The notes under the pieces: model-generated | The model's input: the letters and a program-made list of their open reading frames with translations, nothing else | Database searches by the model: none | What the model was told of the DNA's origin: nothing | Shown: positions 31,251 to 64,000 of the stretch, in pieces | How positions within the stretch are numbered: the stretch's first letter is position 1 | How the letters are laid out: each line of letters starts with the position of its first letter | Translations under genes and position numbers: made by a program | NCBI GenBank assembly: GCA_036426205.1 | Contig: CM071568.1 | Coordinates: 116,038,443 to 116,102,442 of the forward strand | Direction: 5' to 3' | DNA length: 64,000 bases | From: Ascaphus truei | Lineage: Eukaryota; Chordata; Amphibia; Anura; Ascaphidae

Positions 31251-31403
31251 CTGACCGGGACCTCATCACGGATGTCCAGGAATGAAATTCGGAAGAAAAT
31301 CCTGACCGGGACCTTGTCCTGATCGTTCTGAAACTGATTTTGGCCAAAAATTCTGACCGCGACCGTTACGTTCGATTTGTAGAAATTGGCCGCAAAAGAC
31401 AGG
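31251..31403. repeat. 51-bp tandem repeat, three units
   Basis: Units start with CTGACCGGGACC, CTGACCGGGACC and CTGACCGCGACC at 31251, 31302 and 31353, a period of exactly 51 bp. It lies between the solo LTR and the Harbinger terminus. Confidence 0.8.
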
Positions 31404-31895
31404 ACTATGGGCTCTATGCAGAAAGCGCCGAAAAAGTGCAATCGCCAAGGGTACCTTATCGGCATGATTCTGGCGATTTTCCCTCTCCTTATGCAATAAG
31501 TGCCGAATGCCTTCTGAATCAAGCCGAAAACATTTTCTCCCACTCTGCCGATGATTTGCCGATCACACACAGGTGTATCGGCGTGCATGGTGAGGTGGTG
31601 TTAGGTTCCCCAATGAAACTTCTTGCTGAATCTGCCGAAGCAAGCATGTTTTGGATTGAGCGGCCCATTTAAAGGCAGCATGTATTTTTATTCATTCTCT
31701 GTGTTGTTGGGAGAGAGAGAGAGACACACAGAGCTGGCCGATTTACATATTTCATATTGACTGAGACAGTTGTGGTGTATTGTGAGAGGTTTGGCCTGTG
31801 TTGTTTTGTTTACATCTTTGTCTTGTTTTCACTTTGTAAGTGTTCAGTGCGATTGGCTTTAAATTTATTTTCTGTTCTTTGTGAGTGCTAGAGGT

Positions 31896-32308
31896 ATGGC
31901 CGCAAGGCGTGGGAAGAGTGATGCTGGTGTGAGTGGTACTGGTAGTCATGTGAGTACACGTCTGAGTGAACGTAGGATTCAGGGGAGTGCTGTTGATGTG
32001 AGTGCGAATGGTGTTGCTGGGAGTGTGAGTGGTGATGCTGTGAGTGCGAGTGCTACTGGTGGCTCTGTTGCTGGTGCTGCTGGGGTGTCTGGAGGTGGGG
32101 TGGTTGCTGGTGGCCCGCTTTTGGAGTCTCTTCCATTGGAAGAAGGAGAGTCCAGTCAGCAGCAGCCAAGCTCTGGGCCTGCACGTATTCGGAAGAAACG
32201 TGTGGAGCGGCCACATAATCCTCGGTTCAATGAAGAGGAAAAACTACAGCTTCCTCTTGCTCACATGGATTCTGGAGCACTATGACTGTCTGTATGGGCA
32301 TTTACTAG
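31896..32308 (+). pseudogene. Harbinger Myb/SANT accessory gene, exon 1
   Basis: The ATG at 31896 begins a Gly/Ser/Val-rich low-complexity N-terminus of about 90 residues, then a basic segment (RKKRVERPHNPRF) and the first helix of a Myb/SANT-like DNA-binding domain. A one-base frameshift at about 32245-32255 moves the frame. In the new frame the helix continues as TWILEHYDCLYGHLLG and reaches a consensus donor (G|GTAAGT, 32308/32309). In this superfamily the Myb-like protein carries the transposase to the nucleus and to DNA. The frameshift makes this copy inactive unless it is a sequencing error. Confidence 0.7.
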
Positions 32309-32657
32309 GTAAGTCTATCTTTGCATTCATTCTTCAAAGACATGTTATCCTAGGTCATGTGAGATGTCGAATATCAAAATATTATTATCTAATATCTATC
32401 AATTAAACTTAATTGTTACACACATATTCCTTCATGCTTTAGAACGACCATAACAATCAGTCTAAAAATTTGGCCAAAGTTCATACAATATTCATGCAAG
32501 CTTCCTTACATTTCTATGTTTACACGTAAATGCTCATGTGGTACACATATTACACCTAAACCAGTATGTTTGGTATCTCTTGGAACAGGTAGCAGTTTAG
32601 GAAACTGATCGTTTATATAATAATAATTAACGTCATATATTTTGTATGTATTTCAAG

Positions 32658-32963
32658 GGCGGACAAGTTCAGCATCAAAAAAAGAAATGTGGGATCAAAT
32701 AACCTTGGCTGTGTCTGCGTGTGGGAATCATGTCAGGGACCGGGCGAATTGTCGGAAGAGATTCGATGATATCAGGGTAAACTTAAAGAAAAAAATACAA
32801 GCACAACGGATGCATGCATCTGGCACTGGAGGTGGGACGCCAGCACAAGCTCTAATCTTAACACCATTAGAGGATCAGATGCGGGAAAAAATTCTTCCTG
32901 TCGTCGTGGAGGGTTTGCCCGGGGACAGAGATATCGGAATTTATTCGGCTCCATTTCCACCAG
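32658..32963 (+). CDS. Harbinger Myb/SANT accessory gene, exon 2
   Basis: The acceptor (TTTCAAG, ending 32657) joins exon 1 in phase to give LLGRTSS. The exon encodes the second half of the Myb/SANT-like domain, with the conserved W in EMWDQITLAV and the basic helix CRKRFDDIRVNLKKK. A linker follows with TPLEDQMREKIL and EGLPGDRDIGIYS, a pattern I recognise from Myb-like proteins of vertebrate Harbinger elements. The donor is CCAG|GTGACA (32963/32964). The frame is open throughout. Confidence 0.75.
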
Positions 32964-33095
32964 GTGACAAATGTTACTGTACTAGGCGTGTCGTAGGTTA
33001 CAGTTCTTATCTATATTTCCGCAGCTACTTATACTTTCTTCCCAATATAATCATACCTACATATATATCTGTATATATGTCTCTCTCTCTATATG

Positions 33096-33130
<35 letters not shown>

Positions 33131-33171
33131 ATATCTTTATATCTAGTTGTCCTACAAAAGTAACAATTAAT

Positions 33172-33332
33172 ATATATGGTGGCAAAAGGTGGCACTGAGT
33201 GCTCATTTGCATGTCATTTCCCAGAATCTCTTGCTGCAGTGGAAGCGCTGTATGCTGGGCGATAATGGAGAAAGACAGGGTTGCAGACCTGTCTAAGACA
33301 TGCAAATGAGCATACAGTAATATTTACAGTTG

Positions 33333-33379
<47 letters not shown>

Positions 33380-34220
33380 AAAATTGCGCTATGCTCATCT
33401 GCATGTCTTAAGGCAGGTCTGCAACCCCGCCTTCCCCATTATCACCCAGCATACAGCACTTCCACTGCAGCAAGGGATCCTGGGAAATGACATGCAAACG
33501 AGCACACAGTGTCACTTTTTGCCTCAATAACCATTAACCCTGGCTGTGCTCGAAGCTGTGACCATGCAGCAAGCTTAAGCCTATAGGGAACCATGTTAAA
33601 AATGGTTATTGAGGCAAAAAGTGACACTGTGTGCTCTTGCATGTCATTTCCCAGGATCCCTGCTGCAGTGGAAGTGCTTATGCTGGTGATAATGGGGAAA
33701 GGCGGGTTGCAGACCTGCCTAAGACATGCAGATGAGCATACATATATTATATTTGCATATTTGCTTTCCTGTGGAGGGTTTTTGTCACTTTTTTTACTCA
33801 CCATAACTTAACTCGTATTATGGTTTGGCCTATCCCATAAGCCTCTCTTGCATTCCCAGTAAAATCAACCCCACAGCTGATGAGACCCATCAAGGTCGAA
33901 ACACCTGTCTGTGGGTGGTTTTCTGGGTATGCACCTTAACCCGGCTGTGCTCGAAGCTGTGACCATGCAGCAAGCTTAAGCCTATAGGGAACCATGTTAA
34001 AAGGTTATTGAGGCAAAAAGTGACACTGTGTGCTCGTTTGCATGTCATTTCCCAGGATCCCTTGCTGCAGTGGAAGTGCTGTATGCTGGGTGATAATGGG
34101 GAAAGGCGGGGTTGCAGACCTGCCTAAGACATGCAGATGAGCATACAGCTATATTTGCATATTGCTTTCCTGTGGAGGGTTTTTGTCACTTTTTTACTCA
34201 CCATAACTTAACTCAGAGTA
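33172..34220. mobile_element. Array of ~400-bp hammerhead-bearing repeats (retrozyme- or PLE-like)
   Basis: Four copies of one unit occur. Copy 1 is at 33172-33333 (plus), copy 2 at 33377-33533 (inverted), copy 3 at 33534-33935 (plus) and copy 4 at 33936-34220 (plus). Copies 3 and 4 are in direct tandem with a 402-bp period (TTAACCC at 33534 and 33936). The hammerhead lies at the end of copy 3, directly before copy 4. Each unit has POU octamer-like words (ATTTGCAT or ATGCAAAT variants) near the edges of its ~130-bp core. A fifth copy is at 43056-43432. Tandem units separated by hammerheads are the layout of metazoan retrozymes and PLE pseudo-LTRs. Confidence 0.7.
33870..33915 (+). ncRNA. Hammerhead ribozyme motif, family 3, copy 1
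   Basis: Canonical core CTGATGA (33877-33883), stem II GACC/GGTC (33884-33887 with 33894-33897) with a 6-nt loop, GAA (33898-33900), stem III strand ACACCTGT (one base off the palindrome ACAGCTGT), C at the cleavage site (33909) and stem I 3' strand TGTGGG. Stem I 5' strand CCACA precedes the core but with one extra G (33876), which is absent in copy 2. The core is fully consensus. Confidence 0.8.
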
Positions 34221-34234
34221 TTATATATATATAG

Positions 34235-34297
<63 letters not shown>

Positions 34298-35371
34298 TTT
34301 TTTTTTTTATATCTTTATATACACACATATATTAGTGATAATCTATGTTACACCTATAAACAGGCCATTACTGCCTGGCATGGAAGATAGTGCATTCAAA
34401 GGCGAACATTCATAATTTGCACAAACACATTTCGTTATGTTTAATTAAAGATCTTTTTCGCTTCATGTGGTATAATGAGAGCATAAATAGGAACATGTAC
34501 CATATGGTATTTAATTGTGTTCATATGTAGCAAACTTCAGATTTGTCTTTCGCTCATGTACTGGTGTGTGAAACCAGCTGCAATTAATATGTCATCACAG
34601 CATAGAGGAGAACACAGGGGGTGGGGTTGGGCACCGAGCCAGATCACAGGGTCATGTTACGGTCAAGTCTTGTGAGACGCCTTACAGGTGGTAGAAACAA
34701 ATAAAAGGTCAGGGTGCTGTCACGTCTTGGGGGAGGGACTACAGTTGTTAGAAGCTGACAAGGTGAGCAGAAGTTCATCACATTCATTTGAAATGGTAAT
34801 TCTATGAAAACTTTCACCCACCAGGCCACTATATATGAAAACGTACGTTACTCATTCTTTCACTCATATCTTCTTTTAACTTTATAGATACGCCACATTG
34901 TCACACCAGTAGCATCTGTGAGCGACACACTGCATGTGTTGATGAGTGTCAGCCACATTGAGTGCTACACCTGCTTCTCTTAAATGTTCACACAGATCAC
35001 TAAAAACATTCATTCACATTTCCACAATTAGGTACTGAATTATAAGCAGAGTAAACTTTGCTGTCATGGTAGTGATGTACATTATTATTGTTAGATTACT
35101 ACACAACATATGCAGTGTATGTCCAACAGAACACTTAATTTTACAACACATTCCTGCATGAACATTGTATGTTGTATGGTTTTAACAATAAATGTGCCAA
35201 TTAGGTTCACATGTACATTGATGTTAAGATGGATAATGTACAGCTTGGCAGAAACATATTGTCATTTCCTTATGTGATGCTGATATTTAGCCATAAATAC
35301 TCCCACTACACAAACTTTATTTTAATTATGTACACATGTCAATAAAATTCTTATGTTATTCTTCTATATAG

Positions 35372-36043
35372 TTGCTCCTCAAGCTCATGTGTCACCTGAC
35401 ACTGAACATGTCTCATCACCTGGCTCATTAAACTCATCATCAAGCATGGAAGGTGAGTCTTTATGAAGCAATCGAATTAACGCCAGAGAAAAGTGCAAAC
35501 GTGGCCAAAATCTATGACTTGATCGAAAAGAAATATCCATACTACTAACAACCTGACATACAACGAAATTTTAAAACTTCTGTACGATTTACTTTATCCG
35601 CAAATGACTGTTTTGAGCATGTCCATGATCGCCTATATCAACGATATGAATGCTGGCATGTTGCGCCATCATTTAAACTTACCATGGAACATGGAACATA
35701 TCTTCTGTTAAATAGCATATTTTTGCCTAATACCAGTGACACTGAAACCGCACCGACTGTCGCGTCTGCTGATCTACCTGCACCCTCCATTCAGCCAGAC
35801 CAGATGCAAGATGGACATAACTACTATGATATGTATCCAAACTTATATGGGCAATACCAATGTGGATGGGAAAACAACCAACAACTGTACGTACCTCCGG
35901 ACGTCTTGTTTGAAGAAGCCACTGCAGATCCATATGACGCCATCATGGAGATGTGTGTGATTCAGGATTCAACGGTTGCCTCAACCATGGATGATACTGT
36001 TATGCCTTCCTGCAGCGAGCAGTTGCAGCCAAATCAGTTTTGA
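35372..36043 (+). pseudogene. Forkhead-like winged-helix domain, 3' part of the Harbinger accessory gene
   Basis: From the acceptor at 35371 the frame in phase with exon 2 encodes a Ser/Pro-rich linker (VAPQAHVSPDTEHVSSP) ending at a consensus donor-like AAG|GTGAGT (35452/35453). Directly after, one frame over, the sequence reads as a forkhead domain in order: AIELTPEKS (compare the FOX xAIxxSPEK), KIYDLIEKKYPYY (FOX IYxxIxxxFPYY), SVRFTLSANDCF (FOX SIRHNLSLNxCF), CWHVAP (FOX YWxLxP), then TMEHGTYLL (FOX MFENGSFLR). An in-frame TAA at 35546-35548 interrupts it, and the N-terminal PPYSY motif is not recognisable. The frame continues through an acidic/Gln-rich tail to TGA 36041-36043. A frameshift or alternative splicing must join it to the linker. 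I know of no forkhead domain in Harbinger proteins. Capture from a host gene or convergent helix-turn-helix evolution are both possible. Confidence 0.65.
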
Positions 36044-37102
36044 CTTCTACAAGAATGGTAAATACAAATTTCGTTATGCCTTTACTCAAATTATATATGT
36101 CTACATTAATAATATACACCATTTGTTAGCCAAATGAGTGGATACAGCTTAACATTGCAGACAGGCTTACATGTAGCGTGCACAAAGACATTATTTCCTA
36201 TAACAATATACTACATGACGAACCATTAGTACACATTGGTGACGGAGTCCTAAATCCTAGATTATTATCGCTTTTAAAGTATCATTTCAACATGTTACAC
36301 TAACTGTAACACACACACACACACACCTCATTGTTTAGCATTCAACATATAAAAACAAAGTGTCGCCCACATATGACGTGGGACCGTGGTCATGTCCCAA
36401 GGCGTCCTTAAAAAGGTTTACCGATTCAATCCCCGCCCTCAACCGATGTGTGCGCGTGAAACCGTATTGGCTGTGCCCGTAGCTTATTTTTACGGTCAGT
36501 GCAGTGTGTCATGCACGAGCGTCGGTGGGGCGGTGCGTGCACAGCGCTGGAGGCCAATGTTAATTCAGTGAGAGGGGTGTTTGCGTGCATTTCACGGTGC
36601 CTTAACATGACGTTACACGTATTTTGTTCGCTCATTGGCTGATCGTCCATTTTTTCCGTGGGCACACGTCCGTTTACAAAGTTTAGATATGTACGTGTGT
36701 AGAAGTGATTTTGTTTCGCTTCCATATCATAACTTCCAGCCATGATATGCGTACTGCTAGCAACACCATGGAGGGACATGTATTGAATGCATAGCGTACA
36801 CATCGTTTTGCACATGCGCTAAGACTTAGTCCACACATTCGTGACGTGCGCGCGCAACAGACGTTGTGCGCACACATTATTATGTATACAGGCACCGGAA
36901 AAATCATATCTGTAGTAATGCCAGCAACGTCATTTGAAAAATGACACAGTTCTGTATCTGTAGTTTTATCCTTGCAGTTTAAACATATACGTTACTTATG
37001 CGTGAATATCCACAATCATATAGAGATGTGTTAAGCGTTGTCATGCTGAGACATATATAAATGTGCCATCTTTGAACATCATGTGTTTGCTGTATTTCAC
37101 AG
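36044..37102. other. Harbinger non-coding interval with a GC-richer patch
   Basis: 36380-36900 is richer in CG (runs such as GTGCGCGCGCAAC) than the AT-rich rest and resembles the CG-rich patch at 56500-56780 in vocabulary. A (CA)n run lies near 36309-36326. No frame was supported. Confidence 0.4.
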
Positions 37103-37207
37103 ATGTCGCGGATGAATACATGGGACCAATGTATGATTTCAGATGAGCCAATCGTTATATTAGATGATTGTGACGGCGAGCGAACAACTATTATAATAAA
37201 TATGTAA
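37103..37207 (+). CDS. Possible terminal exon, 34 codons, with SUMO-interaction-like motif
   Basis: An acceptor-like TTTCACAG ends at 37102, right before an ATG. The 34-codon frame contains EPIVILDDCDGE, a run of hydrophobics followed by acidic residues as in SUMO-interacting motifs. It ends at TAA 37205-37207, overlapping AATAAA at 37195-37200. Acceptor, short coding part and poly(A) signal together look like a last exon on the same strand as the Myb/forkhead gene, but the 36043 stop means it would need another splice form. Weakly supported. Confidence 0.3.
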   Translation: MSRMNTWDQCMISDEPIVILDDCDGERTTIIINM

Positions 37208-39023
37208 AAATGCTTTCAATGATTGGTGCGCAGATTAACAATCACTACATAATGTTATCCTCTTATGCAAATATTTACTATGCACTTAATTAACATAATG
37301 ATGTTGCTAAGCACTAAAGTTAGAACTTATATTGTTTTTTGGTTATTTTCTACTAACATTATATGTATTGCCATGTGATATATGCAACCAACATTATCAC
37401 TCAGCAAACACATGAATCTACTATATATTATAATCTCACGTGTGACTTGTCAAAGAATGTAAATGCTACATAACAACTCATAGACATTGTATCTGAACGT
37501 ACACAATAACAATAGGGAGGTGATAGAAACTGTTTAGTCGTGTGCATTTTATATTTTCACCTAAGTTGTAGTGCTAACCTAACATGCATGAGCTAATGAA
37601 TGTTAGTTAAAGATCATGAAACCATGAACATTTGTGTGTACATTTTATTCACACGACTAACTATAGTTTAGTGTTATTAGTAAACGTTCAACACATACAT
37701 AGCTAAGTGAGGCCGATGATAAAAGCAACATTATTATGTTTGTTTATATTATTTCACGTAGAAATACATGCATCAGACAAAAACTACAACACACACACAC
37801 ACACACACACTGTTGCTGAAATGTGTGCGTATGCAAATGTCCACTTCATTTATGTTCATATGTTGACATTAGTTATAAAGGATCATGATCATTATGAATA
37901 ACTAACGTGAATGAAATAAAAATTATATTAACAACATTGTCACTGTGTTGAATGAATTAGGAAAAGTTGAGAAGCCAAAGAACTATACTTTGGAATGGTG
38001 TTAACATTTTGACACATGTTACATGTACGTCAAATCAACACACATCTTTGACTTATACATACACATGTGACAATGTAGTAATCAACATGAAGATGAAGTG
38101 ATACAACAACTAATCACATACATTGCAATGTTAATGATGTTTAAAACATTGGTGTCTTTTCATACAAACATGCATCGAGTGTTAACATCGCTCATGTGCA
38201 TCAATGGATGTTCTCCTCCCATAATCAATAGCTGAGCAGGGTTTATCCCCTTCTCTCCACCCACCCCTATATTCCATGAATGGATGTTGTTACGTTTGCT
38301 AAATTACATGTTATGTAATGTCCCTAATGATTTTAAAAGACACTGCACAATAACCAGCAAGTGTAGCTAAACGCACGTACACAATACAGAAACGACATGT
38401 TTCAATTGTCACATCTTTTTCATTACGTTCTGTTTATACATCTTGTAACTATACCTGTATCGAGGTTTGCACATCTTATGACAGATGTGAATTGAAATAC
38501 ATACCATGCGCAGTCATTGAAATGATATACCTTGAAAAAGAAAACATGAATGAATATAAATCATTGTCATGACATGTTCATTAAGGTAAGCAACACACAA
38601 AATTGACCATTTTGTGTGTGATATGAAACAACATCTAGAATACGTCAAATATGATCAGAAATACACAATAGTGTACACATCATTGTGACTCACATGTCAC
38701 ACTGCAAAAGAAACATTGTATGTAACCATACTGCACTAGCTATTGACTATCGACATAGTAGGTTTATTGTGTATGCATAACCAAAAAGAGCATGTACATA
38801 AAATATAGATTTAGTACACATTATTTCTTCACGTACACACAACACCTTTTATTGGTAAGATGTATAATACAACCTGTTGATGAATGACATACCGGTGCCA
38901 CATGCAATTGTCCACACAGCAGATTAGAGAAAGGTGTGCGAATCATATTCATCTGTTTCCTAAGTGAATGGTATTTGGACAAATGTATTAATCATAACAA
39001 AGAATGAATACATCTATGTAGTA
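37208..39023. other. Harbinger AT-rich spacer between convergent genes
   Basis: About 1.8 kb of AT-rich DNA with a (CA)n run near 37789-37811. No coding frame or inverted repeat stands out. Confidence 0.5.
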
Positions 39024-39418
39024 CTATGAACATATATGTATTTGCTTACATGAAAAAAATGTGTTTATGACATTCAGACGTGTCTCAACACCACTGGCTG
39101 TTTGGTCATTGTCAGCTGGTAAATTGACGGGATGCTCCTCCTCCAAACCCTGACATATGTCTGTTTGTACATTATTGCGGAGTGCCACATTGTGCAAAAT
39201 GCAACATGCAATTATAATATCAGACACTTTAGCAGGCTTATATTGAAGTGCCCCACCAGTTCTATCGAGACACCTAAATCTTGTCTTGAGAAGCCCAAAT
39301 GTCCTCTCTATGACGGATCACGTAGATATATGGGCAACATTGTACCTCTCCTCTGCGTCACTTTGAGGGTTTGCCACAGGGGTCAACAGCCACGGCCTAA
39401 TTCCGTATCCTGAGTCAC
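39024..39418 (-). pseudogene. Harbinger transposase, exon 2
   Basis: The acceptor ATTATAG ends at 39419. The exon starts inside the codon joining exon 1 as LVGDSGYGIRPWLLTP, the conserved block after the second catalytic Asp. The third catalytic residue is E in SVIERTFGLLK, just after an in-frame TGA at 39318-39320. That position is Arg in the family consensus (STRSVIER), so CGA to TGA is typical CpG decay. A helical region with CCILHNVAL follows, and the stop is at 39024-39026. Exons 1 and 2 total 1221 nt, a whole number of codons (406 residues), so splicing preserves the frame and the TGA is the only visible lesion. Confidence 0.8.
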
Positions 39419-39527
39419 CTATAATCCATCATGCACAAATATGAAACAATTAGTTTTAACATTATTACATACAACATTTCCTAGAAAACCAAGAGTTGTT
39501 TGTTAACACATCATAATATGTACTCAC
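39419..39527 (-). other. Intron of the Harbinger transposase
   Basis: 109 bp, GTGAGT at the donor side (39527-39522) and ATTATAG at the acceptor (39425-39419). Removing it fuses two conserved halves of the DDE domain in frame. Confidence 0.85.
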
Positions 39528-40353
39528 CCACCAGCCGACCAGGTCCAAAATAGCCTTCTTCGAAAGCATGGAAGATTGATAAGTTTCTCAGGATAGAGGA
39601 ATCGTGACTGGAACCAGGGAATTTGGATACCACATGCATAATCTTCATCGTGGCATCGCATACCACCTGTACATTCAGGGAATGGTAGTGCTTACGGTTG
39701 TGGTAAGCATGCTCACTCTGACTAGGCGGGATCAAAGCAACATGGGTGCAATCGATTGCACCCATCACACATGGTATCCCGGCTATGGTATAAAAGCCAC
39801 TCCTGACTTCCAGCCACTCTGTGTGCTCTGTAGGAAAATGAATATAATTCCTATAGCGTCTATTGAGTGCACATAGAAACTGGGTAAAGGCCCGCGAGAA
39901 TGTAGATTGCGAGACCCCGCCCACTATGCCCACAGTTGTCTGGAATGACGCGGAAGCAAGATAATGTAATGAGCACAGCATTTTAACAAGCTCAGGGACT
40001 GCACGACATCTGGCTGTCACAAAATCGAAACCTCCCCGTATCTTTTCATAAAGAGCTAAGATTGCTGCTGAACTCAAATGATAGCGACTTACAATCTCCT
40101 CCTCACTCATCCCATCTAACAGGGTTCTCTCCCTGTACAAACGAGGATGATGCACATCTTCTCTCCGCTCTCTTTTCCTCTCATCTGCTTGCCCTCTCCC
40201 TCTCCCTCTCCTGTCCGCGTGCCTGTCCCTGTCACTGTCCCTTCCACTGTCCCTGCCTCTGTCCCTGTCCCTTCCTTGGCCTGTGACATCCCCTCCATCA
40301 GCAAGCCTCTCCTCCAATAGAATGTTCCTCCGTCTCATAAACTTTCCCATCAT
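39528..40353 (-). CDS. Harbinger (PIF/HARBI1-like) DDE transposase, exon 1
   Basis: Encodes the first 275 residues of a nuclease of the DDE_Tnp_4/HARBI1 family, which cuts and joins the transposon ends. Residues about 26-65 form an Arg/Asp/Gly-rich insert (RDRDRGRDSGRDSDRD-type) made by a 6-bp DNA repeat. Then come the N-terminal helix region (GMSEEEIVSRYHLSSAAI), a helix-turn-helix-like part (GGVSQSTFSRAF), the first catalytic Asp in GAIDCTHV and the second in SSHDSSILR. No stop or frameshift is seen in this exon. The start at 40353 gives MMGKFMRRR, and a second Met at residue 2 is an alternative. Transcription runs toward the convergent Myb/SANT gene. Confidence 0.88.
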
Positions 40354-41408
40354 TTTCAGGTCTGTAGCTGTGAATGCGCAGGTAATTGCCCTCCTTTAAA
40401 TACCTATGTGATGATGTCAGGTGACTTGCTGAAGTGCAAGGTGTTACATTAACATATCCAAGTAGTTCACTCCCAACGTGTATGCATTAGCAATTAAAAT
40501 AATTATGTATGTGTGTTCACCAGGCAATCATGATATTTGAGAATGATGTAACGTTAAGCTTTGTACAAGCATTTATTGTCAAGTATTTCTGGAATGTGTA
40601 ATGCATGTACCACTTCTGAACGCAACACTAATTGGGATACAACCATGACATTGATGTTGAGAAACTACGTTGCAACATGTGTAATTTGGCATGTTATTGT
40701 CACCTGTTCACATGAAGTTATTTTAATGTGCATATGCATAATTTAATGGCATCAGGATAGTTGCTATTGATTCAGTTTGAATCGTGTAAAAATGAGTAAC
40801 TATTATAGATGTGTGTATAAGTTAGCATGAAGTGATTGTAATGCATCGTGTACAATGTAAACATGCAATATTATTGAGTATCCAATTGCGGACCTCATGA
40901 AAAGAGGGAGGTCACAAAGTACATGTAAACATGAAAACAAACAGCTACATTTACGTTTTGTCATGCGTTACACATTACACGCATTGTATAATGTATAGCA
41001 ACATTACTATACGCTGGATGTGTTAGATGTGTGAAATGTGTTACATCATATAATTAATTGAAGCACACTTAAGTAACATGTTTGATATGATGTGACCTGT
41101 TCCTTTAAGGGTTAAGTATAGGATTTTCCCTTGACACATCATAACATTAAGACTAATGTGACACGCAAATCATCATAACATTGAAAAGTACAATGTTATG
41201 CAAATAATAAACGTAAGGGGTGACACGATGAAGTGAATGACCTCGACACTGTAATGCCAAGCACATTTGTATTATGAGCAATAGAACGTAAACACTACTA
41301 TAATGTTATAAGTCCCCGCTCCATTGACTCCATTGATGTAGAGATGAGGTTTTTTTTCTAAGTGCCGTCCCGGCAACCTTCACGATCGTTCTCCCCTCCA
41401 ACTTGCCA
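40354..41408. other. Harbinger upstream region of the transposase
   Basis: AT-rich, no ORF. It is expected to hold the transposase promoter, but I cannot point to a specific TATA box with confidence. Confidence 0.4.
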
Positions 41409-41667
41409 ACTTTAGTTGGCGGGACCAATTGCCAATGAAATCTCCATTTCTGAGTGCCGATCAGCACCGATAAGCTGATCGGGGCTACTTGAATTCTGCC
41501 GATTTCAAAAAGTGCCGAAAAGTGCCGATAAGCCGCATGCCGATAATTTTTTATCGGCAAGAAAAACTCCCTATTTTGAGCACTTATCGGCGCTTACTGA
41601 ATCTCAAATCCAATTTTGGCAGGAAAATGCCGATAAAAGCCTTATCGGCGCTTACTGCATGAGGCCC
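41409..41667. repeat. Harbinger right terminal region with clustered CTTATCGGC words
   Basis: At least eight copies of TTATCGGC, GCCGATAA or GATAAG variants occur in 260 bp in both orientations, ending in the terminal inverted repeat. The left end (31409-31660) has fewer and more diverged copies. Confidence 0.75.
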
Positions 41668-42764
41668 TTAGTCTTAGTCTTAGTCTAATTTCCTAGTTTC
41701 AAAACGAAGCTGGTTGCTCTGCTATTTGTAACAGAGCAACTTTGAAACTCCGCCCTAGCTTCATCGACATAAGTCACTGGATAGCTTGGTTCTCTGACTT
41801 GGCCAACCCCTTAAATACCTTCCCCTGAGCTATATTCAGCATGGAGGAAGGAGGGAGTTCTTCCCCGCCAACCAGTAGGAATAGGGGCTCATCCTTTGGC
41901 TGATGTTAGAGGAGGAGGCTTGCCAAGCCGGCTCGAAAACCGGGTGAAATATGATTTAGCCAATGGGAGAAGCGCCTACAATCTGTATCTCCCCCAGCTA
42001 ACTCATTGCCACCCGCTGGACATGCTCCACAAAGTCTGGCAGATACAAAAGGTTTCCCCACAGGGTGCCTTTTGTTATCTGGACCTGGCAATTTTCCCTT
42101 CTTCGCCCACCAAACGGTCTTCTAACCTCTGGTTAGCCTCACCTCTTTGAACTACGGACCGTATACAGACATGCCGGAGTCTATGCAGATGCCCTGGCTG
42201 ACTGTATAGTCTTTTAACAAATGTATAAAACATTACAAAGTACACTTTAATAAAGTATGGACTTTGGGGAACCTCATACTTACAAGGGCAATGGGTTTGG
42301 GATATTTGAACTCGAAAGTCAGGAGTCTGGGGGACCCTGGGTTGCCCCAGTGTAAATCACCCTGCGTACCGACCGTCAAACCATGCCTGCTCGCCGGGGA
42401 GAATTAAAGGACTACTGGTAATTTCGGCCCCCAAACACCTGCAAAGAAAATAATTGCATTTCTACCCAAATATCCCACCTAAAACTTGTATATATGAAAT
42501 TTCACAGTTCTAGGGCACAGGAAACATGTAAACAGGAAAAGCAGGGTTCACTTTATTTTTGACGTGTATAATCCCTGGTCCTTGGCTTATGGTGCTATGT
42601 AGCTACCAGGGAACCCACGGTCTCAGGGGTAACCATATGGGCTTAAACCTTTATTGTATAGCCTGGTTACCCCCTCCTGTCACAGTATCCCCCGGATAAG
42701 CACAGATAACATTCCTAGAGACACTGTCTTTAAGTAAAACCCTTGCTTGCTTTATTCATTGTAA
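41668..42764. other. Unclassified interval, possibly retroelement-derived
   Basis: Contains a CTTAGT triplication at the Harbinger border, a hairpin around 41712-41752 (CTCTGCTATTTGTAACAGAG) and AATAAA near 42250. No coding frame with family features was found. Confidence 0.35.
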
Positions 42765-42965: not shown

Positions 42966-43434
42966 AAGCATATAGCAAATGGAAATATAACTGTATGCTC
43001 ATTTGCATGTCTTAAGGCAACAGTTATATTTCTATTGCTATATGCTTTGCTGAGGAGGATTTTTGCACTTTTTACTCACCATAACTTATCTAATATGGTA
43101 AACCCCATCTTCATTGCTTCAGCTTTGCATAGCCAGTGTAACCAACCCCACACTGATGAGACCCATTAAGGTCGAAAAAGCTGTCTGTGGGTCGGTTTAC
43201 TGGCAATGCATCTTAACCCTGACTGTGCTTAAAGCTGTGACAATGCAGCAAGCTTAAGCCTATAGGGAACCATGTTTAAAATGGGTTTGAAGCAAAAAGT
43301 GGCACTGTGTGCTCATGTGCATGTCATTTCCCAGAATCCCTTGCTGCAGTGGAAGTGCTGTTTGCTGGGTGATAATGGTGAAAGGCGGGGTTGCAGACCT
43401 GCCTAAGACATGCAAATGAGCATACAGTTATATA
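42962..43434 (+). mobile_element. Hammerhead-bearing repeat, copy 5, interrupted by Tc1
   Basis: A ~95-bp inverted repeat (CAGCAAAGCATATAGC mirrored by GCTATATGCTTTGCTG) is followed by a full unit of the family seen at 33.2-34.2 kb, including the hammerhead at 43147-43191. It is cut at 43433-43434 by the Tc1-like element (TA target). A possible continuation resumes at 50569. Confidence 0.75.
43147..43191 (+). ncRNA. Hammerhead ribozyme motif, family 3, copy 2
   Basis: Stem I CCCACA (43147-43152) pairs with TGTGGG (43186-43191), core CTGATGA (43153-43159), stem II GACC/GGTC (43160-43163 with 43170-43173), GAA (43174-43176), stem III strand AAAGCTGT (one base off ACAGCTGT), cleavage C at 43185. 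The core is fully consensus and this is the best-paired family-3 copy. Confidence 0.85.
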
Positions 43435-43462
43435 CAGTTAGGTCCAGAAATAATTGGACACT
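43435..43462 (+). repeat. Tc1-like left terminal inverted repeat
   Basis: 28 bp, mirrored at 50539-50566 with one A/G difference. TA outside. Confidence 0.92.
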
Positions 43463-43493: not shown

Positions 43494-44493
43494 TGTAATG
43501 TCTGTATGCCCGCAGACCTGGCCAGTCCCGAGTACTGAGGTGGGTAAGGGTATAACACGCACCCACTGCAGTGAGGGCATGCCCGGAGTGTGCTAAGTTG
43601 CGTTGTCAGGCCTGGAGAGTAAGGGTTAACGCTATACTTGCTGAGTCCGGGATGCCAGAGGTCAGAGGGTTAATGTCCAAAAGCCAGAGTTCAGGGGCAT
43701 GAGAGAGCAGCGTAGTGATGTCCAGAAGCCAGGGTTCAAGGGCAAGAGAAGGCAGCGTAGTCAAGTCCAAAGCAGAGTCCAAGTTCAAACCAAGGGAAAT
43801 ACAAACAGGGGCAGGGACAGGAACCAGAGCTGAAACAGACAAGGGAGCTAGGCATAGACACTGCACACACAGGAGCTACAGGAAAGCTATGCAGAGCAAG
43901 GAATGAAAGGACAGAGTAGGGTTATAAGGGAAGAAGGGCCAATAGAAGCAAGGGGTGGAGCAGGGGTTTGTCTGGATGTTTGCAGGGATAGGTTCAGGTG
44001 AGCAGCGGAGGAGACAGGGGAAGAATCCACCGCAATAGCCTGCAGCTGGTGAGGGGTGGAGCCACGGTTGCAAAAGGGCTGGTAAAAGGATCGGGTGCGC
44101 GCGCCCTCTGTAAGGCTGCCGTGCGCGCGCACCGATCGTGTGCCTGGGCGTGTGGCATGCACTGCGGAGGAGCGGCTCGGCATGGAGGAGGTAAGGGAGC
44201 GAGAGGGAGAAGGAGAGGAGCAACCAGGAGCGGTGGGAGCTGAGGTGATGGGGACACACTGGGAGATGCGTGTCCCCTGATCCGTCACCGATGATTGGGT
44301 ACGCGCGCCTTCTGCGAAGCTACTGCGTGCACGGTCCGATCGCGTGAGTGGATGTGCAGCGTGCGCCGTGGAGGGACGGCTATGTGAGGAGGGGGTAAGA
44401 GATTAAGGAGGCAGGGAATCAGGGCAGGAGAGCAGAGTGGGGATTGAGGTGGAGGGGACGTGCTACGAGGCACTTGTCCCCCGATCCGTTACA
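43494..44493 (-). repeat. 3' LTR of the gypsy element
   Basis: 1000 bp. It carries a TTATAA box (43922-43927) and the 5'-end segment TATGCAGAGC (43888-43897, plus strand reading). Two ~195-bp modules in U3 (44092-44287 and 44292-44493) each end in a GATCCGT phrase. Tandem ~46-bp units of the AGCCAGAGTTCAGGGGCA type lie at 43675-43780. It is longer than the 5' LTR by a ~60-bp segment near 43530-43590. Confidence 0.9.
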
Positions 44494-45330
44494 GTACCCC
44501 CCCCCCTTGAGGATAGCGAACTCTGCCCAGGGTAAAAAATCCACCCAGTTGAGATTCTGAGACGAAGCATCTGAGATACTGTTCCAATGTCTGATTCATT
44601 CTTTCCGTCTGGCCGTTGGTCTGCGGTTGATAACCCGAGGAAAAGAGAAGAGAAAGGCCAAGTCTCTGAAAGAACGCTCGCCAAAACTTAGAAATGAATT
44701 GAGTACCTCTGTCTGTAACAATGGAAAGTGGCACGCCATGTAACCTGAAAATTTCCTTAGAAAAATTGTCAGCCAAGGTAGCTGAGTTGGGAAAACCCTT
44801 GAGGGGTATAAAGTGTGTGTGCTTGGAAAACCTGTCCACTACCACAAGGATCGTATTCATCCATTTAGAATTTGGAAGTTCCACAATAAAGTCCATGGAG
44901 ATATCCTCCCAAGGCTGTTCTGGAATGGGAAGAGGCAGGAGGAGACCCGAAGGTTTGTGGCGGGCGGACTTGCTCTGAGCACAGATTGGACAAGCTCTGG
45001 TGAAATCAAAGATGTCTTTGTTCATTTTAGGCCACCAAAAGGTCCGTTTGATAAGATCTACTGTCCTCTTGAAGCCTGGATGGCCAGTGGATCTAGAAGA
45101 ATGCCCCCAGTGTAGGATTTTATGGCGAAAACATGGTGCAGCATACAACCGTCCTTCTGGCACCTTAAATCTCCTAGGGACATGGGACTGAGCCTTATTG
45201 ATCTCATCCAAGATATCAAAGTTATTAACAGAAATAATATACTTAGCGGGAAGGATTGTTTCTGACGATTCGTTAGATCCTTCCTCCAATGAGAATTGAC
45301 GAGACAGGGAATCGGCCTTGATATTCTTGG
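44494..45330 (-). pseudogene. Gypsy integrase, C-terminally deleted
   Basis: Zinc-binding HHCC part: H in HWGHSSRSTGHPGF and CPICAQSK. Catalytic core: Asp in ISMDFIVELP, Asp in VTDRGTQF and Glu in NGQTERMNQTLEQYL. Shortly after, a one-base frameshift occurs near 44550. The sequence then runs straight into the polypurine tract, so the C-terminal DNA-binding part and any chromodomain are missing. The catalytic triad itself is intact. Confidence 0.88.
44497..44507 (-). promoter_or_regulatory. Polypurine tract of the gypsy element
   Basis: Minus strand AAGGGGGGGGG directly before GTAC and the 3' LTR. It is the primer for plus-strand synthesis. Confidence 0.85.
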
Positions 45331-45718
45331 TACCTGGGATGTAAGAAATCGTGTAATTGAAACGAGAGAAAAACAATGCCCAACGTACTTGACGGGATCC
45401 TAGACAACGAGCTCCCTCAATGTACAATAAGTTTTTGTGATCGGTGAGAATAGCCACTGGCTCTTTGGTACCCTCGAGTAGATGTCTTCATTCTTGGAGG
45501 GCTAATTTGATAGCCAAAAGTTCACGGTTCCCGACATCATAATTTCTTTCGGCCAAAGAGAACTTCCTGGAAAAGAAACCACACGGATAGAGTTTCTCTT
45601 GTGGAGACGATCTCTGATAGAGTACTGCCCCAGCTCCCACATCTGAGGCGTCTACTTCCAGGGTGAAAGGAAGGGAAGTATCCGGATGTCGAAGGATGGG
45701 GGCAGAGACTAAAGCTCT
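45331..45718 (-). pseudogene. Gypsy RNase H region
   Basis: Continues from the reverse transcriptase after a frameshift at about 45720. It reads [13 protein letters not shown] (first catalytic Asp), [17 protein letters not shown] (catalytic Glu) and ILTDHKNL (Asp). An in-frame TGA at 45488-45490 stands where the family has Trp in a W-H-L-L-E-G phrase. The domain degrades template RNA and would also cut the self-primer. Confidence 0.82.
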
Positions 45719-46560
45719 TTAAAGGAACTCGAAGGCTTTGATGGCTTCAGGGTACCATGCTGTCGGGTCAGCACCTTTCTTGGTCAGAGCGGTAATGGGG
45801 AGAGCAATAGTAGAGAAATTACGGATGAACTTCCGAAAGTAGTTTGAAAAGCCAAGGAAACGTTGAACAGCTCTTAGGGAATTTGGCAACGGCCAATCGA
45901 GAACAGACTTCAATTTCTCGGGGTCCATGGTAAAACCTTTATCAGAGATTATATAACCAAGGAAGGCTGTAGAGGATTGGTGGAAGAGACATTTCTCCAT
46001 TTTCGCGTAGAGGCGATTAACACGGAGCCGAGAGAGAACCACCTTGGTGTGACGAATGTGCTCTTCCAGATTCTTGGAGAAAATGAGGATATCATCTAAG
46101 TACACGATGACAAAGGTTCCCAGAATGTCCCGGAAGATATCATTCATAAATTCTTGGAAGACGGCAGGGGCATTGCAGGGGCCGAACGGCATCACGAGGT
46201 ATTCGTAATAACCCGAACGTGTGCTAAATGTGGTTTTCCATTCGTCACCGTCTCTTATCCGAATAAGATTGTAAGCTCCTCTCAGGTCGAGCTTGGAAAA
46301 TAAAGAGGCTCCTTGGAGCCGGTCAAAGAGTTCAGAAATTAGCGGAAGAAGATACCGGTTTTTAACAGTAATTTTGTTGAGCAAACAAAAGTCGATACAG
46401 GGTCTTAGAGAGCCATCCTTCTTTTTCACGAAGAAGAAACCTGCCCCTGTGGGTGAGGTGGAATTCCGAATAAAGCCTTATTCGATGCTCCTGGATGTAG
46501 GTTGCCATCGCCTCAGTCTCGGGCACTGATAAGGAATAGGACTTAGACTTGGGAAGTATG
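45719..46560 (-). pseudogene. Gypsy reverse transcriptase
   Basis: Fingers motif [13 protein letters not shown], first catalytic Asp in [10 protein letters not shown], the active-site YLDD in [12 protein letters not shown], and thumb/connection [21 protein letters not shown]. The frame is open for 236 codons (46429-45719) and ends at a TAA made by a frameshift. An upstream stop at 46575-46577 and a frameshift near 46440 separate it from the protease. Active-site residues are preserved. Confidence 0.92.
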
Positions 46561-46574
46561 GCTCCAGGAATTAG

Positions 46575-47087
46575 TTAGATGGGGCAGTCGTATGAACGAT
46601 GAGGGGGTAGAACCTTTGCCTGGGTTTTGTTAAAGATATCTAGGAACTCATGATATACCTTCAGCAAGGTGGAGAGAGAAGAAGAAGGAGTGGTGTCGAG
46701 GCCAGGGAGCACGGCAACGGGAGAAGTGACCGTCTTCTCCACAGTAGAAGCCCATTGGATCGGTAATTCATTGGTCCTATCCACACGTGGGTTGTGAAGC
46801 TGGAGCCACGGCAATCCCAGAATAACCTGGACAGTAGGAGAGTGGAAAATATCGAAAATGATGACCTCAGTATGACCATCCGCGGTGGTCAGGGTAAGCG
46901 GGATAGATTCCCAAATGATGAAAGCAGGTTGGAGCGGTCGACCGTCTGTAGCCTCCAGGCCGATGGGAGACTTTTTCTTGACTAACGGGATTTGGTTGGT
47001 GCTGGCAAAGTCGTGATCCAGGAAGTTACCACCAGACCCGGAGTTGATGAAGGCTTCAACCTCTACCTTAAGATTAGGACCCACCAA
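46575..47087 (-). pseudogene. Gypsy aspartic protease region
   Basis: The active-site triad that should read Asp-Ser-Gly is Asn-Ser-Gly in AFINSGSGGNFLD. The flap/C-terminal motif VILGLPWLQLHNP is present. An open 170-codon stretch ends at TAA 46575-46577, in the DCPI phrase that leads into reverse transcriptase. The D-to-N change alone would abolish Gag-Pol processing. Confidence 0.82.
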
Positions 47088-47199
47088 AGTTATGGGGAGC
47101 AGGATCGTCTTCGGTAGTTCTTTGGGGGGAGAGGGGCAAGGAGAAATGGTACCCAGTAGAAGCCCCTCTACCTTTACTGGGCGTTCTCATTTCCCGGTT

Positions 47200-49021: not shown

Positions 49022-49326
49022 ATACCAAAATAAATTCAAGTTACAGTTAAATAATGAATATGGGCTTAAAGTGCATTCTATCAGCTTTAATTTGAGGGTA
49101 TTCACATCCAAATTGGAGAAAGGGTTTAGGAATTACATCGCTTTAATATGTAGCCCCCTCTTTTTCAAGGGACCAAAAGTAATTGGACAATTGAATCTAA
49201 AGTTGTTTCATGGACAGGTGTGGGCTATTCCTTCAATATTTTATCATCAATTAAGCAGGTAAAAGGTCTGGAGTTGATTCCAGGTGTGGCATTCGCATTT
49301 TGAAGCTGTTGCTGTGAACCCACAAC

Positions 49327-50360
49327 ATGCGGTCAAAGGAACTCTCAATGCAAGTGAAACAGGGCATCCTTAGGCTACAAAAATATAGAAAATCCATCAG
49401 AGAGATAGCAGGAACATTAGGAGTGGCCAAATCAGTTTGGTACATTCTGAGAAAAAAAGAACGCACTTGTGAGCTCTGCAACACAAAAAGGCCTGGACGT
49501 CCACAGAAGACAACAGTGGTGGATGATCGTAGGATCCTTTCCATGGTACCGAAAAACCCCTTCACAACATCCAGCCAAGGGAAGAATACTCTCCAGGAGG
49601 TAGGCATATCATTATCCAAGTCTACCATAAAAAGAAGACTTCACGAGAGCAAATACAGAGGGTTCACCACAAGGTGCAAACCATTCTTAAGCTTCAAGAA
49701 TAGAAAGGCCAGATTAGACTTTGCCAAACAATATCTAAAAAAGCCAGCCCAGTTCTGGAACTGCATTCTTTGGACAGATGAAACTAAATCAACCTGTACC
49801 AGAATGATGGGAAGAAAAAAGTATGGAGAAGGCTTGGAACGGCTCATGATCCGAAGCATACCACATAATCTGTAAAACACGGGGAAGGCAGTGTGATGGC
49901 ATGGGCATGCATGGCTTACAATGGCACTTGGTCACTAGTTTTTATTGATGATGTGACAGAAGACAGAAGCAGCTGGATAAATTCTGAAGTGTATAGGGAT
50001 ATATTGTCTGCTCAGATTCATACAAATTCAGCGAAGTTGATTGGACGACACTTCACTTTACAGATGGACAATGACCCAAAACATACTGCGAAAGCAACCC
50101 AGGAGTTTTTTAAGGCAAAGAAGTGGAATATTCTGCAATGGCCGAGTCAATCACCTGATCTCAACCCGATCGAGCATGCATTTCACTTGCTGAAGGCAAA
50201 ACTTAAGGGAGAAAGACCCACGAAAAAACAACAACTGACGATAGCTGCAGTAAAGGCCTGGCAACGCATCACAAAGGAGGAAACCGAGCGTTTTGTAATG
50301 GCCATGCGTTCCAGACTTCAATCAGTCATTGCCTGCAAAGGATTCTCGACAAAGTTTTAA
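49327..50360 (+). pseudogene. Tc1-like DDE transposase
   Basis: An N-terminal paired-type helix-turn-helix with SIREIAGTLGVAKSVWY and the GRPQKT hook precede a second HTH (SLSKSTIKRRLHE). Catalytic residues are Asp in ILWTDETK, Asp in LQMDNDPKHTA and Glu in SPDLNPIEHAF, with 34 residues between the last two (DD34E, the Tc1 signature). Two lesions are visible: a one-base deletion in an A run just after DETK (about 49786-49790), and a TAA at 49866-49868 in the frame of the second half. Otherwise full length, about 345 codons. It is inactive as read. Confidence 0.92.
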
Positions 50361-62934: not shown

Positions 62935-64000
62935 CTAAAGGAACATTGCAAAACTGAGGTAATCATTTAATCCAGTTGGAATCATGGTCCCTAATTGAAC
63001 TATCCATCTGCATTCTTTTTGCAGTAGGAGCTGCTCCACATTACCGCCGCGGATGCCTATGTTGATTTTATCAATGGCAAAGGCCACCAGGGATGAGGGG
63101 TCAGAGTTGTGCACATCACGAAAATGGCGTGCCACACTGGTGATTTTTTTGAAGCACGCCAGGTCTTTAGTTGCATTTTTAATGTTACGTGTGTGCTCCA
63201 AAACCCTTACACGAAATTCCCTGGTGGTCATGCCAATGTAAATCAGACCGCAGGGACAGTTCAGATGGTAGATGACATTCTTGGATTTACAATTTAAAAA
63301 ATAAAAGATTCTGAAGTTTCTGGTGCCTTTAGAGTTATGAAAGACATCAGTCTGCTTCATGTGTCTACACGCGGAACAATGTCCACATTTGTAGAAACCT
63401 TTTAAGTTTACTTGGTTGAGGAAAGTAACTTTTGGAGGGGTAGTGTAATGACTCCTGACCAGTAGGTTCTTTAGGTTAGGTGCTCTCCTACTAGTGAGGC
63501 TAACTCTGTCACCCAGAATAGCCCGGAGATCTTGATCTGCCAAAAGTATGTCCCAGTGTTTTTGAAGGATGTTTTTGAGACTGTTCCATTTATTATTGTA
63601 AGTTCCAATGAACCTTATTGTTTTAGTTGGTGTTGGTTTAGGTTTAGGTTGCAATAGAGTTTGTCTGTTTAGTTTTTGACTGTTGTTAAGACCCCGTTTT
63701 ATGGCCGATTGGCTATAACCCCTTGCCTTAAATCTTTTGCTCATATCTATGGATTGGGTATTAAATGTCTCCATAGTTGAGCAATTACGGCGAAGTCTGA
63801 TAAATTCGCCATTGGGGATGCCCCTTATCTGATGAGCAGGATGAAAGCTGCTGGCGTGCAGTAGGGTGTTACAAGATGTCGTTTTACGGAAAATGTCAGT
63901 CACTACACGACCATCAGAGGCAATGCTAATACTGAGGTCAAGATATTTAACATTAGTAGTACTCGAGGTGTAGGTGAGCCTGATGTTAATGCTGTTGTGA
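62935..64000 (-). CDS. Penelope-like polyprotein, C-terminal part with GIY-YIG endonuclease
   Basis: The frame is open from the window edge to TAG 62935-62937, so it is 5'-partial (about 354 codons visible). Near the edge, KYLDLSISIASDGRVVTDIF followed by YxK-type HASSFHPAHQIRGIP and GEFIRLRRNCS match the thumb region of PLE reverse transcriptases. A Cys/His cluster (YKCGHCSACRHM) comes next. The nuclease has GLIYIGMT (GIY-YIG), FRVRVLEH (catalytic Arg) and a late Glu in NVEQLLLQKECRW. PLEs use this nuclease for target nicking during reverse transcription. No stop or frameshift is visible, unlike every other transposon gene here, so this copy may be young. Confidence 0.88.
   Translation of the reverse strand, partial: HNSINIRLTYTSSTTNVKYLDLSISIASDGRVVTDIFRKTTSCNTLLHASSFHPAHQIRGIPNGEFIRLRRNCSTMETFNTQSIDMSKRFKARGYSQSAIKRGLNNSQKLNRQTLLQPKPKPTPTKTIRFIGTYNNKWNSLKNILQKHWDILLADQDLRAILGDRVSLTSRRAPNLKNLLVRSHYTTPPKVTFLNQVNLKGFYKCGHCSACRHMKQTDVFHNSKGTRNFRIFYFLNCKSKNVIYHLNCPCGLIYIGMTTREFRVRVLEHTRNIKNATKDLACFKKITSVARHFRDVHNSDPSSLVAFAIDKINIGIRGGNVEQLLLQKECRWIVQLGTMIPTGLNDYLSFAMFL

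Follow-up and report, generated by a model that had tools for sequence, protein, structure and literature searches.

A PIF/Harbinger element with a forkhead frame beside its Myb exons

The window, a stretch of 64,000 nucleotides of DNA from the tailed frog Ascaphus truei, contains a PIF/Harbinger element that extends from about 31.4 to 41.7 kb (Table 1). A DDE_Tnp_4 transposase, a Myb/SANT second gene and imperfect terminal inverted repeats are all present, which makes the element a member of this group; inspection by eye of the flanks at the presumed ends revealed no clean 3-base repeat, and so no clean TWA target-site duplication. Harbinger3_DR-type elements share with the window the DDE_Tnp_4 transposase, the Myb/SANT-like gene and the inverted-repeat ends, and differ in that here a forkhead open reading frame (ORF) replaces the C-terminal half of the accessory gene. 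Both parts of the transposase exceed the Pfam cut-off for DDE_Tnp_4 of 24.8, and a Pfam scan of the three minus frames of 31800-41642 returned transposase families alone. Exon 2 of the Myb gene is identical to two related proteins, P0003 and P0004, at 82/92 (89%) and 85/97 residues respectively, and of 4989 candidates in a search with translated Myb exons 1-3, the 40 proteins listed at E ≤ 0.001 all come from Ascaphus truei (Anura). The window copy itself is dead, all three of its genes being broken: the frame of Myb exon 1 is interrupted between about 32243 and 32273, the forkhead ORF carries two stops and the transposase carries one.

Table 1 Features of the PIF/Harbinger element (positions are those of the window).
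Feature	Position	Strand	Evidence and remarks
Left end, imperfect terminal inverted repeat	31396-31434	+	32/40 columns equal the reverse complement of 41642-41681
Myb accessory gene, exon 1	31896-32308	+	tblastn of P0005 and P0002 in two frames; donor CTAG/GTAAGT
Myb accessory gene, exon 2 (SANT part)	32658-32963	+	PF13873 (Myb_DNA-bind_5) 26.6 bits, cut-off 21.7
Myb accessory gene, exon 3	35372-35452	+	Ends AAG/GTGAGT; tblastn of relatives and splice signals
Forkhead ORF	35453-36058	+	No ATG at start; stops at 35546-35548 and 36041-36043
Forkhead domain	35462-35677	+	Pfam PF00250, stop read through; first 11 profile positions missing
Acidic tail, common to P0042	35729-36058	+	tblastn 54.5% over 110 residues, E 2.6e-35
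Transposase, second part	39189-39434	-	DDE_Tnp_4 57.9 bits; TGA at 39318-39320
Transposase ORF, first part	39511-40395	-	Pfam DDE_Tnp_4 55.8 bits at 39547-39756
Right end, imperfect terminal inverted repeat	41642-41681	-	Pairs with left end, 32/40 columns

Other repeats lie within the element and beyond it. A repeat of about 400 bases occurs as several direct and inverted copies in Myb intron 2 (33167-34230), and recurs outside the element at 43014-43439. Further along the window we noted, by eye, Gypsy-like retrotransposon pol ORFs at 44489-47186 (minus strand), Tc1/mariner-like transposase ORFs at 49318-50360, and a long ORF at 62935-63999 (minus strand) which has a GIY-YIG-like stretch at its end and looks Penelope-like.

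The forkhead domain and its reading frame

An earlier note on this DNA, made from the letters alone, had recognised a forkhead-like domain inside the transposon, on the same strand as the Myb/SANT exons, and both Pfam and tblastn bear this out. The landmarks on which it relied (YEAI..TPEK, IYDLIEKKYPYY, SVRFTLSANDCF, CWHVAP and MEHGTYLL) all lie in one plus-strand frame, and the Pfam Forkhead search that it proposed was positive, with a score of 52 bits (E = 7.8e-14, cut-off 27) when the stop within the domain is read as Gln. The match covers positions 12-84 of the 88 in the profile, whilst the part 3' of the stop, scored alone without read-through, reaches 18.5 bits (E = 0.0022), which is below the cut-off. 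The domain also emerged from a scan in which no region was chosen beforehand: across the three whole plus frames of 31800-41642, with X placed at every stop, Pfam reported Forkhead (43.5 bits) and Myb_DNA-bind_5 (21.7 bits) and nothing else at E ≤ 0.1. None of eight shuffles of the domain's 91 residues matched Forkhead in Pfam, and three of the eight matched other families at E between 0.03 and 0.13. The forkhead domain is therefore real, though broken by one stop.

Searching the PDB with this domain retrieved 41 distinct chain sequences at E ≤ 1, mostly named forkhead proteins, the best being 1vtn (HNF-3/fork head; 7.1e-7). FOXA, FOXC and FOXG chains were near-equal in score (32.6 to 29.6 bits), and such close scores hamper a placement any finer than 'class I-like'. 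The window shares with FOXA and FOXC, which we take to be class I FOX transcription factors, the forkhead core and a post-wing stretch matching FENGCYLR; it differs from them in lacking the first 11 profile positions, in two replacements (Asn to Thr and His to Phe), and in sitting within a transposon. For the tail that follows the domain, the sole relative found in protein searches is the gene model P0042 described below.

Outside the domain, the claimed span of 35372-36043 needs correction at both ends. Its first part, 35372-35452, is not forkhead at all but Myb exon 3 in another frame, and the comparison with P0042 moves the original end of the ORF from 36043 to 36058. The absence of a PPYSY-like start has the same cause, because the bases upstream of the match, which opens at profile position 12 and only nine bases beyond the end of exon 3, belong to exon 3 and its different frame.

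Two stops interrupt the forkhead ORF, a TAA within the domain and a TGA near the end of the frame, whereas 5000 dinucleotide shuffles of 35453-36058 averaged 12.4 stops and 0.04% of them had two or fewer. By eye, this frame has a coding-like base pattern by codon position, and the forkhead part and tail share it, with one stop inside the domain. Since the ORF has no ATG of its own, its translation would require an upstream exon. A protein search with the 197-residue ORF alone gave no match at E ≤ 0.001 among 22 candidates, and pattern searches for the module gave no match in viral contigs and 12 pattern matches in prokaryote genome contigs, none of which was confirmed. Downstream of the ORF, at 37103-37206, we noted by eye an acceptor-like ttcacag; the short open frames behind it, which read VADEYMGPMYDFR or MSRMNTWDQCMISDEPIVILDDCDGERTTIIINM, may be a last exon.

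The exon 3 junction and the usual C-terminus

Exon 3 of the window is identical to that of P0003 at 24/28 residues, and its pattern occurs in 36/40 relatives and, as two copies, in P0042. For most relatives the tblastn match extends to 35439, at which point the sequences diverge; six (P0003, P0004, P0007, P0008, P0016 and P0034) reach 35451, one reaches 35454 and two reach 35463. The exon boundary is supported by P0009 and P0017, which lack exon 3 and, judged by eye, join the next stretch in frame. The forkhead ORF begins at the splice donor of exon 3, a site preserved in the window; in this copy the forkhead part is out of frame with exon 3. Matches of the relatives (tblastn) located a single exon 3 in the element and no second one.

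In the relatives, exon 3 leads into a stretch that we labelled coiled-coil-like by eye, recognised by motif in 36/40 and in 37 when P0006 is added by eye. Near the C-terminus, 15 of the 40 (including P0004, P0012, P0017 and P0019) carry QLL[IL]TSFW or QLQITSFW, which in these Ascaphus Harbinger Myb proteins resembles a PCNA-binding PIP box. At E < 0.1, tblastn detected no counterpart in the element of the usual C-terminal stretches of P0003, P0004, P0019 and P0036, and whole-protein tblastn of the relatives (> 26 bits) matched nothing in the element 3' of exon 3.

A location of the usual exons in another part of the window was also considered and rejected, as matches of the C-terminal stretches were either low-complexity or weak and scattered. 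Among the best 40 matches, those of P0004, P0019 and P0036 at E < 0.1 were just low-complexity sequence at about 5.7-6.0 and 26.8-28.1 kb; weaker, scattered ones at E 0.1 to 0.7 included one in the transposase ORF and one in exon 1, both low complexity by eye, and the P0003 stretch was absent from these best 40. We likewise rejected a reading of the tail as a disguised form of the usual Harbinger C-terminus: its best similarity among the 40 relatives was E 2.4, and none of the tail words tested was matched.

Harbinger copies without the domain had been named in the earlier note as evidence that would speak against its proposal, and the relatives provide it, with the forkhead tail present in 0/40 and the usual end in 36/40 by motif. 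The forkhead form is thus a minority variant and not the standard protein.

A second gene model with the same tail

A second Ascaphus gene model, P0042 (LOC142490705, 509 residues), came from a protein search in which the forkhead ORF formed one part of a longer query and the candidates had the length expected of a Myb-forkhead fusion; it was the sole match at E ≤ 10 among 144 candidates (E = 5.7e-24). Global alignment of its tail with window 35729-36058 gave 60/111 identities and a score of 288, as compared to a maximum of 18 in 1000 shuffles. Both tails share the same C-terminus, the match running past the window TGA to the TGG before 36059, and this TGA is therefore a second premature stop. 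In P0042, exon 3 leads into the usual end (coiled-coil and PIP-like), after which come a second exon 3 and then the forkhead tail; the forkhead domain itself is absent, the second exon 3 passing straight to the tail. With two sets of exon 3, P0042 may be a chained gene model.

The proteins whose C-termini were compared belong to lineage A (P0003 and P0004) and lineage B (P0010, P0012, P0019, P0035 and P0042). The second exon 3 of P0042 is identical to P0010, of lineage B, at 22/27 residues and to the window at 17/27, whilst exon 3 of the window groups with lineage A. The usual C-terminal stretches of A and B are 51-58% identical in 10 pairs, and the two tails (54.5% identity) have diverged to a similar extent, as would be expected of a module that the family already possessed when A and B parted. 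This comparison of one tail pair is suggestive only, and points to a forkhead module that is probably old in the Harbinger family; recombination between lineages may instead account for the tail.

P0042 bears on how the module came to lie here. One reading is that a host FOX fragment or retrocopy landed by chance in a single copy and is unrelated to the transposon, which would suit the out-of-frame junction between exon 3 and forkhead, the loss of the usual exons from the element and the lack of the tail in the 40 listed relatives. We regard this as quite improbable, since the same tail also follows a second exon 3 copy, one of the other lineage, and two protein searches (22 and 144 candidates) turned up no host relative standing on its own.

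It is also unlikely that the tail alone was joined to Myb, with exon 3 spliced over a forkhead part that is now an intron and the remnant of a captured gene. The P0042 gene model does proceed from exon 3 to the tail, and the AAG/GTGAGT donor survives in the window; against this, the forkhead part of the window is a recognisable domain, in frame with the tail and with one stop, and neither of two acceptor-like AGs viewed by eye (ending at 35715 and 35736) is in the phase of exon 3.

A third arrangement, which we consider rather doubtful, is that each element made two accessory products, the usual Myb protein and another from a duplicated exon 3 with the forkhead module, either as a tandem gene or through alternative 3' exons. 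The window copy would then be a derivative lacking the usual C-terminal exons, perhaps through recombination between exon 3 copies. The order of parts in P0042 is what such an element would contain, and the exon 3 that precedes the tail is A-type in the window and B-type in P0042, both lineages also having the usual end; P0042 may nevertheless chain two neighbouring elements, and the window element yielded a single exon 3.

Predicted working of the two halves

In zebrafish Harbinger3_DR, the Myb-like protein binds the transposase, with which it enters the nucleus, and recognises a 9-base subterminal motif (PMC9710019, PMC9179366). As the Myb/SANT exons are kept in the window, this role would be kept too: the Myb/SANT half would bind the subterminal repeats of the element and bring the transposase to the nucleus. 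The forkhead half would take the place of the part of the accessory protein that is usually coiled-coil and PIP-like, and may provide a further point of contact, either with DNA or with another protein, that could alter where or with whom the transposition complex assembles.

The usual forkhead site is probably not what this half would read. According to a study of FOXN1, the residues facing the bases are Asn317, Ser318, Arg320 and His321 (PMC7062188), and alignment with FOXA chains places Thr, Ser, Arg and Phe at these positions in the window. Two of the four members of the conserved helix 3 Asn/Ser/Arg/His set of FOX factors are thus replaced, and the exchange of Asn for Thr and His for Phe in the recognition helix makes reading of RYAAAYA unlikely. 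Judged from these residues, the domain may instead read an altered site, bind the DNA backbone or contact a protein. Two single-sequence AlphaFold models (mean pLDDT 29.6 and 38.2) were uninformative on the fold.

Discussion

We give an even chance to the reading that this is a dead PIF/Harbinger copy in which the forkhead ORF and its tail of about 110 residues, following exon 3, formed an alternative C-terminal half of the accessory protein. Forkhead and tail would stand in place of the usual coiled-coil end after Myb exon 3. In support, the forkhead ORF abuts exon 3, the usual end is untraced, and P0042 has an exon 3 copy with the same tail; a simple fusion is opposed by the frame mismatch between exon 3 and forkhead, the two stops in the ORF, the lack of a forkhead domain in P0042 and the absence of the tail from all 40 relatives. 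The two-module accessory protein suggested in the earlier note therefore fares unevenly, with the exon 3 copy and shared tail of P0042 for it and the frame mismatch and the missing domain of P0042 against it. An intact Myb-forkhead fusion was seen neither in the window copy, nor in P0042, nor in the 40 relatives, and a Myb/SANT-forkhead protein from this gene is a prediction from sequence. It is likely that a helper combining two types of DNA-binding module was produced by some of these Harbinger elements.

As to origin, the module would be a capture from a host FOX gene, made at a time when lineages A and B of the Ascaphus Harbingers had yet to diverge. The old capture that had been proposed fits in so far as a host FOX gene is a suitable source, but protein searches did not find the donor. 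We presume that the captured gene was probably of class I, because the match extends into the stretch equivalent to FENGCYLR of FOXA.

Exchange of partner proteins has a parallel in ISL2EU, Harbinger relatives whose second ORF has a different domain, YqaJ (PMC4482050). In both cases the partner protein varies within the superfamily; in ISL2EU the whole second ORF is another, whereas in the window Myb exons 1-3 remain. The word forkhead occurs zero times in the main text of the surveys PMC4482050 and PMC9179366 and of the domestication paper PMC9710019, and among papers retrieved from the open-licence PMC literature titles and abstract openings name no forkhead in an accessory protein of Harbinger or other transposons, which is weak evidence of novelty.

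Taken together, the analysis leads us to propose, tentatively and at a little under even probability, that a vertebrate Harbinger lineage long ago took up a host FOX gene and kept it through a lineage split as an alternative end of its Myb helper, giving either one protein with two DNA-binding modules or two isoforms, one coiled-coil and one forkhead. If true, the two-module helper would be a new helper design for the Harbinger transposon family. Vertebrate genes gain DNA-binding parts from transposons, and host-transposase fusions join a transposon DNA-binding module with a host module, the host gaining the transposon domain; the window pairs the same kinds of module, but here it is the transposon that holds the host-type domain. 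A transposon that gained and kept the DNA-binding domain of a developmental regulator would, if this is correct, represent such traffic in the reverse direction.
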